Shown here: one piece after another, positions 9,881 to 41,116 of the stretch
Layout: every line of letters begins with the position of its first letter
Position numbering within the stretch: position 1 is the first letter of the stretch
DNA from: Lachnospiraceae bacterium
GTDB taxonomy: Bacteria > Bacillota > Clostridia > Lachnospirales > Lachnospiraceae
Length of the DNA: 64,000 bases
Reading direction: 5' to 3'
NCBI GenBank assembly: GCA_015056945.1
Contig: SVFH01000013.1
Span: forward strand, 1-64,000
The notes under the pieces: model-generated
What the model was told of the DNA's origin: nothing
Database searches by the model: none
The model's input: only the letters and a program-made list of their open reading frames with translations
Made by a program: the position numbers and the translations under genes

Positions 9881-9894
9881 AAATAATGTCATAA

Positions 9895-10012
9895 TCTTCA
9901 GGGACGGGTGAAATTCCCTACCGGCGGTGATGTAAGAGCTAGTCCGCGAGCCGTGTGAACGGTTGATTCGGTGAGATTCCGAAACCGACAGTAAAGTCTG
10001 GATGAAAGAAGA
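9895..10012 (+). ncRNA. FMN riboswitch (RFN element) aptamer
   Basis: The conserved blocks of the RFN element are present in order: the P1 5' strand TCTTC (9895-9899), GGGTGAAATTCCCTACCGGC, GGTGATG, AGTCCGCGAGC, GATTCGGTGAGATTCCG, AAACCGACAGT, AAAGTCTGGATG, and the closing GAAAGAAGA whose GAAGA pairs with the first TCTTC. This aptamer binds flavin mononucleotide and usually turns off riboflavin synthesis or transport genes by termination. The gene downstream is a riboflavin transporter subunit, which fits. The expression platform (10014-10172) is unusually long and contains a dispersed repeat plus two terminators. Confidence 0.95.
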
Positions 10013-10013
10013 T

Positions 10014-10115
10014 GCTTTTTTATTGCATAATTCTTATGCAATAAAAAGCTCCGCGTGGATGCGCGCGCTTTCGCAAAGGAAGATGTCGCACGGATGCGAC
10101 ACGAAAACGGCGCGA
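10014..10115 (+). repeat. Copy of dispersed structured repeat inside riboswitch expression platform
   Basis: Begins with the palindrome TTGCATAA-TTC-TTATGCAA (10023-10041), flanked by GCTTTTTTA and TAAAAAGC that also pair. It continues with GCTCCGCGTGGATGCGCG and a perfect hairpin TGTCGCA-CGGA-TGCGACA (10084-10101). The order and spacing match the copy at 14107-14205, including the shared GCTCCGC, GGATGCGC and GCAAGGAA/GCAAAGGAA words. It lies directly between the FMN aptamer and the terminators. Confidence 0.7.
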
Positions 10116-10116
10116 G

Positions 10117-10139
10117 AGTTTCGTGAACGAAACTTTTTT
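10117..10139 (+). terminator. First terminator of FMN riboswitch leader
   Basis: Stem AGTTTCG/CGAAACT around the loop TGAA, followed by six T residues (10134-10139). It lies ten bases before a second, stronger terminator, so the leader has tandem terminators. Confidence 0.7.
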
Positions 10140-10148
10140 CATGCATGT

Positions 10149-10172
10149 CCCGGAAATATTCCGGGCTTTTTT
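10149..10172 (+). terminator. Second, stronger terminator of FMN riboswitch leader
   Basis: A perfect 7-bp GC-rich stem (CCCGGAA, loop ATA, TTCCGGG) is followed by C and six T residues. It is the best candidate for the ligand-controlled terminator before ribU. Confidence 0.85.
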
Positions 10173-13212: not shown

Positions 13213-13569
13213 ATGATTTTTTTAAAAGCTTTTTTGGTGGGCGGATTGATTTGTGTATTATCTCAAATCTTATTGGAAAAGACAAAGATGTTGCCGGGAA
13301 GAATTATGGTATTACTGGTTTGTAGTGGTGTGGCTTTAAGCTTTTTCGGTCTGTTTGAACCGCTGAAAGAATTTGCGGGAGCCGGTGCAACCGTACCTCT
13401 TTTGGGGTTCGGACATGTTCTGATGGAAGGTGTAAAAGATGCCGTGGATGAGCGGGGGTTTATCGGTTTGTTTATTGGGGGCTTAACAGCCGGAGCGCTT
13501 GGAACAAGTGCAGCATTAATACTCGGATATCTTGCCAGCCTTGTTTTTAAACCAAAGGCGAGAGATTAA
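13213..13569 (+). CDS. spoVAE: Stage V sporulation protein AE
   Basis: 118 residues, all membrane segments and short loops, the usual size for SpoVAE(b). Recognised by 'FLVGGLICVLSQILLEKTKMLPGRIMVLLVCSG' (split across residues 6-38), 'GFGHVLMEGVKDA' and 'GLFIGGLTAGALGTSAA'. It acts in the inner membrane of the spore in dipicolinic acid uptake and release with SpoVAD and SpoVAC. It starts after an AAAGAGGCGG site. The 134-base gap upstream could hold its own promoter, but I could not identify a convincing SigG element. A perfect terminator follows the stop. Confidence 0.93.
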   Translation: MIFLKAFLVGGLICVLSQILLEKTKMLPGRIMVLLVCSGVALSFFGLFEPLKEFAGAGATVPLLGFGHVLMEGVKDAVDERGFIGLFIGGLTAGALGTSAALILGYLASLVFKPKARD

Positions 13570-13575
13570 AAAAAG

Positions 13576-13609
13576 CCATTTCGTTATCGGATAACGAAAT
13601 GGTTTTTTT
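13576..13609 (+). terminator. Terminator after spoVAE
   Basis: Twelve-base-pair stem CCATTTCGTTAT with its complement around CGG, followed by seven T residues. The T run is immediately followed by a partial copy of the palindromic repeat (TTGCATAGG). Confidence 0.93.
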
Positions 13610-13610
13610 A

Positions 13611-13627
13611 TTGCATAGGGATTTTTC
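13611..13627 (+). repeat. Partial copy of palindromic repeat
   Basis: TTGCATAGG directly follows the spoVAE terminator, in the position where full copies lie at 14107 and 41070. The second arm is missing: the sequence continues GATTTTTCTTTG. It is best read as a decayed copy. Confidence 0.4.
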
Positions 13628-14057: not shown

Positions 14058-14104
14058 AATAAAAAATACGGCGCACCGTTCATGGTGTGCCGTATTTCTT
14101 TTGT
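14058..14104. terminator. Terminator of argG, active on both strands
   Basis: Fourteen-base-pair stem (14064-14077 with 14084-14097, one G-T pair) and six-base loop. On the minus strand, six or more U follow (A run at 14061-14066), which fits termination of argG. On the plus strand a T-rich tract also follows. The palindromic repeat begins three bases beyond. Confidence 0.85.
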
Positions 14105-14205
14105 TCTTGCATAGGAAATTCCTATGCAATGAAAAATCGCTCCGCTAAGGATGCGCAGTTCGCGGCAAGGAATTTTGTTGCCGAGCAACACCGCTTACGC
14201 GCGGA
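14101..14205 (+). repeat. Full copy of dispersed structured repeat downstream of argG
   Basis: Carries the perfect 23-bp palindrome at 14107-14129 (TTGCATAGGAA, a central A, then its reverse complement), identical to the copy at 41070-41092. It is followed by GAAAAATCGCTCCGCTAAGG, ATGCGC, GCAAGGAA and a perfect hairpin TGTTGC-CGA-GCAACA (14176-14190). The hairpin occupies the same place as TGTCGCA/TGCGACA in the copy at 10014 but with different bases in both arms, so pairing rather than sequence is conserved. It lies between the argG stop and its terminator. Confidence 0.75.
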
Positions 14206-14244
14206 GAATGTGCTATGCACATTCTTTATTTATAGAAGAATAAA

Positions 14245-40403: not shown

Positions 40404-40474
40404 GCTGTCAGAAAAATGGAAAAGTTTGTATAAGTCAGCAATTAACGGAAATACTGTTTTTTGTAATCGTGCAT

Positions 40475-40496
40475 GGGGGAGCCTGAAGCGTCCCCC
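40475..40496 (+). other. GC-rich hairpin before coat-like gene
   Basis: GGGGGA (40475-40480) pairs with TCCCCC (40491-40496) with a ten-base loop, in the 130-base gap between GH2 and the next gene. No T run follows, so it is not a typical terminator. Its role is unknown. Confidence 0.35.
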
Positions 40497-40536
40497 TGTG
40501 TACGGATTAAAATCCAAATCAAGAAAGGAAATTCAT

Positions 40537-40992
40537 ATGTTAAAAGAAAAAGAAATTCAGGCAATCAATGATTTGTGTACACAGGAGCAGTGCTGTATTG
40601 AAAAGTATAATAAGTATAAGAATGAAGCAAAGGACCCTGTCTTAAAAGATCTTTTTGCGCAGATTGCTTCTAAGGAAGAGGAACATCTGCATTCCTTAAA
40701 TCAGGTATTGGCAGGTAAAACACCTTCCTGCGATTGCAATGACGACAGCGGCAAGAAGTATAATCCTGAAGCAACCTATGATTCCCTGACGAATTCAGAG
40801 GATAAAAAATCCGATAATTTCCTTGTGACAGATTGTATCGGAACTGAAAAGATGGTGTCCGGCGAATATAACAACAATGTGTTTATTTTTGCGGATGCTG
40901 CAATTCGTAAGCTTCTTGCTGATATTCAGATTGAAGAACAGAATCATGCAGAAATGCTTTATAAGTATAAAACTGCTAACGGCATGGCGTAA
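40537..40992 (+). CDS. Ferritin-like spore coat-type protein
   Basis: 151 residues from the ATG at 40537 after AAAGGA. Two helical pairs carry 'QCCIEKYNKYKNEAKDPVLKDLFAQIASKEEEHLHSL' and 'AAIRKLLADIQIEEQNHAEMLYKYKTANGM' (in parts), which give Glu/His positions like a ferritin-like metal site (EEEHLH, EEQNHAEM). Clostridial coat proteins of the CotF/ferritin-like group have this layout. A Cys-rich loop 'SCDCNDDSGKKY' lies between. The family assignment is moderate and the sporulation role is inferred. A terminator and a copy of the repeat follow. Confidence 0.7.
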   Translation: MLKEKEIQAINDLCTQEQCCIEKYNKYKNEAKDPVLKDLFAQIASKEEEHLHSLNQVLAGKTPSCDCNDDSGKKYNPEATYDSLTNSEDKKSDNFLVTDCIGTEKMVSGEYNNNVFIFADAAIRKLLADIQIEEQNHAEMLYKYKTANGMA

Positions 40993-41020
40993 GTGTTTGA
41001 AATAGTTATATAGTTTATAA

Positions 41021-41068
41021 AAGTTCTTTCCTGTTACCAATTGATTGGTGGCGGGGAAGAACTTTTTT
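41021..41068 (+). terminator. Terminator after coat-like gene
   Basis: Eleven-base-pair stem (41021-41031 with 41054-41064, one G-T pair) capped by a second hairpin ACCAA-TTGA-TTGGT, followed by T residues to 41068. The right arm (GAACTTTTTT) can also pair with GAAAAAGTTC beyond the palindromic repeat, so the two structures could compete. Confidence 0.85.
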
Positions 41069-41116
41069 CTTGCATAGGAAATTCCTATGCAAGAAAAAGT
41101 TCCGGAATGTTCCGGC
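41064..41116 (+). repeat. Full copy of palindromic repeat after terminator
   Basis: A perfect 23-bp palindrome at 41070-41092, identical to the copy at 14107-14129. Flanking TTTTTC and GAAAAA extend it to a 17-bp stem around a single central A. CCGGAA-TG-TTCCGG forms a second hairpin at 41103-41116. The GC-rich part after it differs in sequence from the copies at 10014 and 14101. Confidence 0.75.

Follow-up and report, generated by a model that had tools for sequence, protein, structure and literature searches.

The window analysed here, i.e. the whole stretch of 64,000 nucleotides, comes from a Lachnospiraceae genome of 2.70 Mb (G000) and contains, all on the forward strand, two full copies of a small element (10014-10140 and 14107-14231), one copy consisting of a hairpin only (41070-41092) and one half-hairpin (13610-13619). 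A full copy comprises a hairpin, H, and a body, B, of about 90 nt, for a total of about 125-130 nt. The initial annotation had described a dispersed repeat with a palindrome, which proved real: the palindrome pattern matches three times in the window against 0.01 expected, a number reached in none of 100 shuffles, and at 48 places genome-wide (see below). GCTCCGC (six matches in the window, 3.84 expected) and GGATGCGC (five matches, 1.57 expected) are, by themselves, ordinary words.

Copy 1 has no ordinary gene terminator as its host: it follows an FMN riboswitch aptamer (9890-10017; Rfam RF00050, 117.7 bits), lying behind the aptamer's closing stem and T-run. Its hairpin, recognised by sequence, pattern match and fold, spans 10014-10049 (GCTTTTTTATTGCATAA / TTATGCAATAAAAAGC), with the palindrome TTGCATAATTCTTATGCAA at 10023-10041 and an A-run that mirrors the host T-run. 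The divergent body at 10056-10139 (covariance model R2, 52.9 bits) has only standard pairs at the model's paired positions, despite many differing paired letters, and ends in a terminator-like stem at about 10115-10139 (R2). Further downstream, at 10149-10172, sequence and alignment with the empty site in G030 place the riboswitch leader's downstream terminator, which has been retained on the 3' side of the insertion. Between 10014 and 10172, the FMN leader thus carries the element's terminator-like stem in addition to the downstream terminator, which may mean a rebuilt expression platform; an ECF-type transporter gene follows (Pfam ECF_trnsprt).

Copy 2 sits behind a terminator stem and T-run at 14067-14106. 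Its hairpin, the palindrome TTGCATAGGAAATTCCTATGCAA at 14107-14129, has 11-bp arms around a one-base centre; its body (14139-14231; R2, 74.7 bits at 14148-14228) is 99% identical to the typed body of subfamily I and closes, again by R2, with a terminator-like stem at about 14205-14228. Both scores are those of copies that belong to R2's own 75 building sequences. The annotated ends of these two copies need correction: the copies extend to about 10140 and 14231, respectively, each including its terminator-like stem.

The palindrome of copy 2 recurs, as annotated, at 41070-41092, behind the terminator (41019-41066, an inverted repeat) of a Coat_F/rubrerythrin-like gene (40426-40992, Pfam). Here the arms continue to pair beyond the palindrome, across the mirrored T-run and in the direction of the terminator stem (GAACTTTTTTC / GAAAAAGTTC, with a single unmatched T), and R2 finds no body at E up to 5; of the repeat copy proposed at 41064-41116 only the hairpin therefore stands. 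The alleged partial copy at 13611 is a terminator T-run plus the hairpin's left half. More precisely, 13569-13619 holds the terminator behind the gene at 13213-13569 (SpoVAC/SpoVAEB family; inverted repeat, sequence, Pfam) and then the left half-hairpin ATTGCATAGG, without a body, either a relic or an intermediate.

Copy number, range and fold of the element

In G000, the pattern TTGCATA-N(2-14)-TATGCAA occurs at 48 places and its reversed control at none, while model R1 (made from 35 G000 copies, 13 of the 48 palindrome copies having been excluded for an incomplete or variant body) finds 58 bodies. The order of motifs annotated behind the palindrome recurs genome-wide: 47 of the 48 palindromes lead into the same body start (at least 12 of 15 letters), the exception being 41070, with H alone. 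Usually, the host T-run comes first, then the palindrome H, an A-run, GCTCCGCTAAGGATGC and finally B, which in the 35 full copies closes with a terminator-like stem that carries TTTGTT or TTTATT. Two subfamilies can be told apart, with mixed forms besides, and the G+C content of the body is 0.46-0.60 in 14 of 15 full-length body matches and 0.39 in the remaining one (window, 0.408).

R1 matches 9 of the 31 genomes of the genus, G000 included. The palindrome differs between species, hence that of G000 has no match in 60 relatives and none, as a pattern, in the scan of named genomes; copies in the other genus genomes were found by their bodies, and their hairpins differ from those of G000. The pattern scan of named genomes returned at least 110 stretches, with titles mainly of Butyrivibrio and other Lachnospiraceae, 80 loci of which (L142-L221, 82 matches) were analysed. 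R2, made from 75 bodies, matches 74 of 200 Lachnospiraceae genomes, i.e. 73 of 199 genera, among at most the 23 best candidates per genome, so that copy counts per genome in this draw are lower bounds; in a draw across the phylum it matches 2 of 299 genomes, namely G000 and one of the same family, among the best 15 candidates per genome. None of the bodies matches Rfam 15, either in the window and 56 loci at gathering score or in 6 loci at E up to 1. An L20_leader candidate (L087:560-684) was rejected: its 24.8 bits fall short of the gathering score (58.7), and it lies over the host terminator region and ends before the body.

The full list of copies has 187 rows, in which 11 copies are counted twice (L104 is L103, and ten named-genome loci are genus loci). 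A strict set of 168 copies was freed of these duplicates and also lost 8 rows that probably represent distinct copies, namely seven second or third copies within a locus (the window copies at 14107 and 41070 among these) and L119; its results agree with those of the full set.

The body folds into stems of the form GCGC-A-NN-UC-GCGG ... CCGC-UC-NN-GCGC, an inner UUGC/GCAA hairpin and a terminal stem. The pairing was assessed on a 75-row alignment, A2, from which 6 of 61 non-redundant named-genome sequences were excluded by hand (L151, L163, L182, L209 and the second copies in L185 and L208); 55 of its rows come from a pattern that fixes several stem letters, by which variation is hidden rather than created. 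Paired cells amount to 87.6% against 78.9% after shuffling, 16 of the 23 pairs vary on both sides, and the covariation score of 0.266 (0.124 shuffled) is equalled in none of 500 shuffles; sliding the partner columns by 1-3 lowers pairing to 29-48%. The terminal stem is paired at 70.5%, partly because MAFFT misplaces it in some rows. The compensated hairpin that had been spotted from two window copies is thus borne out, both by the R2 matches at 14148-14228 and 10056-10139 and by strong covariation over the 75 sequences. Between H and the body, a further small hairpin is seen in L214, L179, L186, L148 and L154, with compensated stems (CGC/GCG, CAC/GTG, GCAC/GTGC, GACAC/GTGTC) and a TCC or TAC loop; none was seen in 29 of the 82 named-genome rows.

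Insertion sites and mobility

A terminator-like hairpin with a T-run is found in the 110 nt upstream of B in 40/48, 10/15, 28/40 and 59/82 copies of the four copy sets (37/43, 10/15, 27/39 and 49/70 in the strict set), compared with 9/144, 1/45, 6/120 and 7/246 random windows, these controls not being restricted to gene ends. By the same rule, 8/48 and 23/82 copies have no upstream terminator, so the earlier statement that every copy stands beside one holds for 40 of the 48 G000 copies and fails for 8. The upstream gene is co-directional in 40/48, 14/15, 34/42 and 73/82 copies; the 39 of 187 copies that a crude ORF caller places inside an open frame are taken for chance frames. Mostly, copies lie directly behind the T-run of intrinsic terminators. 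Three outcomes had been set beforehand as speaking against the proposal (few copies genome-wide, no covariation, no bias toward terminators) and none occurred, the corresponding findings being 48 palindromes and 58 bodies, the covariation of B, and 40 of 48 copies against 9 of 144 random windows.

The host ends are diverse: they include tRNAs (e.g. L001, L005, L033), T-box leaders (L103, L113, L130), RNase P RNA (L168) and Clostridiales-1 RNA (L194); in L199 a cobalamin riboswitch lies about 200 nt upstream of the copy, and in L038 (1357-1803) a copy sits between the two aptamers of a TPP riboswitch leader. The presence of copies in riboswitch and T-box leaders suggests that the predicted terminator of B cannot be fully strong there.

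Orthologous sites are empty in some relatives. The FMN leader of G030, the closest relative by argG identity (88%), aligns without the element, the gap opening right behind GATGCTTTTTT of G000; the FMN leaders of G027, G001 and G006 are likewise empty. At the argG site (14107), relatives also lack the element and are too diverged to give exact boundaries. Further, near-identical copies of H and B occur with unrelated flanks, 15 in G225 and 5 in G157, as do near-identical copies in G015 and G013, two in each. G024 (L117-L124) has eight closely similar bodies, perhaps a recent burst: four have an H cut at its right arm, two a full H and the remaining two an unreadable 5' flank, two of the eight lying at contig ends. 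Copies in tandem are found in L016, L027, L031, L005, L185 and L208. In L005, three bodies recur about every 121 nt (953-1299), and another full copy lies downstream of this array.

Behind the 3' end, a second instance of H's left arm is seen in 14 of 139 copies, two of them tandem; in the strict set the count is 12 of 128, where shuffled letters give 1.2 on average and 6 at most. Looked for as a general feature, a target duplication turned up in this minority only. The check for empty orthologous sites flanked by target duplications, which had been suggested from the window, is therefore borne out as to the empty sites, which break behind the T-run, and as to the duplications in a minority of copies only.

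It is distinctly unlikely that the element is a fixed second terminator or 3'-end structure serving its host and spread by recruitment rather than by mobility. The sense orientation behind genes (40/48 and 73/82), a terminator-like stem of its own and strong covariation are what such a role would produce, and some sites are occupied in more than one species (the sites of L164/L189, for instance, look orthologous, for which a host function is also possible). It is difficult to reconcile, however, with the empty sites in relatives, with near-identical copies at unrelated sites, with tandem copies and with copies placed between FMN, T-box or TPP leaders and what lies downstream, where a strong extra terminator should be harmful.

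As to the route, the transcript, ending at its own T-run, might be reverse transcribed into hairpin and T-run sites, as in group IIC introns, whose insertion sites adjoin a DNA stem-loop according to the excerpts of PMC10190682. The similar target, the folded body with its own terminator, and the constant 3' ends combined with 5' sides shortened right at the host T-run (e.g. L138, L140) are in keeping with such an RNA route. It is nonetheless unlikely: apparent internal deletions exist as well (L014, L019, L029), no group II intron family of Rfam is matched in the loci scanned, and RVT_1 is absent from five carrier genomes, namely G024 (98% complete, eight body matches), G027, G006 (85%), G001 and G030 (70%). 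G000 has four RVT_1 pieces. Y1_Tnp, the other helper considered, has no match in G000 (88% complete) and is found in 17 of the 31 genus genomes, its presence not tracking the element. Both RAYT and reverse transcriptase were rejected as helpers, since neither tracks the element across genomes.

Dispersed near-identical copies, T-run junctions, empty sites and pairing can be read directly from the DNA; judged from these, the copies probably form a family of mobile elements, short and non-autonomous, that inhabit Lachnospiraceae and insert immediately 3' of a hairpin and T-run, usually that of an intrinsic terminator. An enzyme would recognise the hairpin with its T-run and then join B behind the latter. 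The terminator carried by B would offer a new target, which would explain the tandem copies, and would limit read-through, which would make gene ends tolerated landing sites. The pairs of B may be kept because the mobility machinery recognises the folded form, on which selection would then act.

The hairpin and its match to the host

H is present in 153 of the 187 rows, with 85 distinct inner 12-mers (in the strict set, 141 of 168 copies, 83 inner 12-mers and a median arm of 17). Its bases follow the host: outside the constant core, contiguous pairing with the copy's own host totals 240 over 45 G000 copies, whereas 5000 shuffles average 157 and never exceed 194. Along the same line, pairing among copies that share an inner 8-mer is 1440 against 1146 when shuffled (95 rows; maximum 1257 of 2000 shuffles), and 1304 against 1021 in the strict set (85 copies; maximum 1114 of 2000). 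In 15 of 141 copies with H, the paired arm continues at least 3 nt past the T-run, reaching the terminator stem in L155 and L194, for example; of these 15, the stem in L092 is due to chance.

The evolution of H is in part independent of that of B. Among the named-genome copies, 8 of 82 have B directly on the T-run without H; one T-box site carries H and B in G006, B only in G001 and nothing in G027; of the site pair L105/L092, only the former has H; and L161 and L189 have differing hairpins behind what appears to be the same terminator.

Template switching is the simplest account of how H comes to mirror its host, selection on the fold being a strong alternative. H would be made or perfected by short-range template switching at the T-run junction and would, in this way, take the complement of each new host; such switching has been proposed both to create and to repair hairpins of this kind (PMC8794818, as excerpted), which weighs against the alternative, namely that H pairs with the host T-run because an RNA hairpin covering the U-tract is selected. 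The alternative is a serious contender, if a tentative one: the prevalence of H despite its many distinct inner sequences, and arms that run past the T-run (one by chance, as noted), are what such selection would favour, while copies without H where a relative has H and B (L113 against L103, L092 against L105), and 7 of 45 G000 copies without a paired base just outside the palindrome core, are at odds with it. The first proposal from the window, that changes keeping the pairing suggest selection for RNA structure, needs a qualification: paired arms of the palindrome need not reflect RNA selection, because template switching on DNA perfects inverted repeats too.

A stronger version of template switching, somewhat unlikely, would have H made anew at each landing: before it joins the body, the new strand would fold back and copy the T-run of the host, in some cases the terminator stem as well. 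Each element would then carry from the outset a hairpin that complements its own host. This would be a previously unknown route of integration, by which a structured element of about 90 nt finds terminators by recognising their hairpins, perhaps by way of an RNA intermediate.

Significance and relation to known systems

Small repeats found behind genes tend to be explained as relics of REP, BOX or MITE elements. The family described here, widespread within a major bacterial family of gut and rumen, appears to combine an exact, apparently structure-based target with a folded body of its own and host-specific complementarity, and may reveal a new route of movement for tiny elements. The questions it opens could be put to cultured Butyrivibrio: which enzyme would read a terminator as DNA, where a palindrome that mirrors its neighbour comes from, and what insertions within riboswitch and T-box leaders do. 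The initial label of a mobile terminator accessory, possibly undescribed, fits these results; among the best-ranked matches in the open-access literature, supplementary motif lists aside, no published description of such an element of Lachnospiraceae was found.

Many of the stem-loop sites of group IIC introns are terminators. The element shares with these introns, by position, the insertion just behind a stem-loop; they are, however, ribozymes with a reverse transcriptase (PMC10190682, in excerpt), whereas in the element, with its body of about 90 nt, neither was found: no group II ribozyme is matched by Rfam in the loci scanned, and the five carriers named above lack RVT_1.

The first reading of the repeat as REP- or MITE-like holds in so far as the copies are short and many, and several defining features of both classes are absent or left open. 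As in REP/RAYT systems, whose REPs are portrayed in the excerpts of PMC3733652 as extragenic palindromes in many copies, 20-40 bp long, with GTAG or CGTC tags and mainly in Proteobacteria, there are many extragenic palindromic copies near gene ends. That they are REP-type palindromes moved by RAYT transposases is nevertheless very improbable: none of the 48 G000 copies has GTAG or CGTC, on either strand, within 6 nt of the palindrome foot, and the 88% complete G000 has no Y1 transposase. Of the features of MITEs, the element has the short length and high copy number (about 125-130 nt, 48 palindromes, 58 bodies) and lacks the AT-richness, its body G+C being mostly 0.46-0.60 against 0.408 in the window; by eye, the ends of full copies are not inverted repeats, and a left half of H behind the 3' end gives a pair resembling terminal inverted repeats in a minority.

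Closer in some respects are two pneumococcal repeats, here taken from the excerpts of PMC3049150. SPRITE of Streptococcus pneumoniae is likewise a small interspersed repeat, terminator-like and enriched near gene 3' ends, and consists of one AT-rich 18-bp duplex, a U-rich tract and AAAA/TTTT ends; the element, unlike it, has a G+C-richer body with several stems in place of a single long terminator duplex, and follows a terminator that was already there, in most cases together with a hairpin matched to the host. BOX is, like the element, a modular and strongly folded small repeat, of which one copy forms a composite RNA with two T-box riboswitches; terminal inverted repeats as well as target duplications are reported for it. 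Finally, the mobile/repeat sequence candidate MRSC-65-2 (PMC11109978, in excerpt) has a covarying structure and many copies per genome too, but is one long stem found in diverse phyla, in contrast to the several stems of the element and its occurrence, in the draws made, in Lachnospiraceae only.

To sum up, none of SPRITE, BOX, REP/RAYT, group IIC introns and MRSC fits the element in all testable defining features, as these stand in the excerpted descriptions compared; its place is among the small structured interspersed repeats, from which its target and its hairpin mark it out as unusual.
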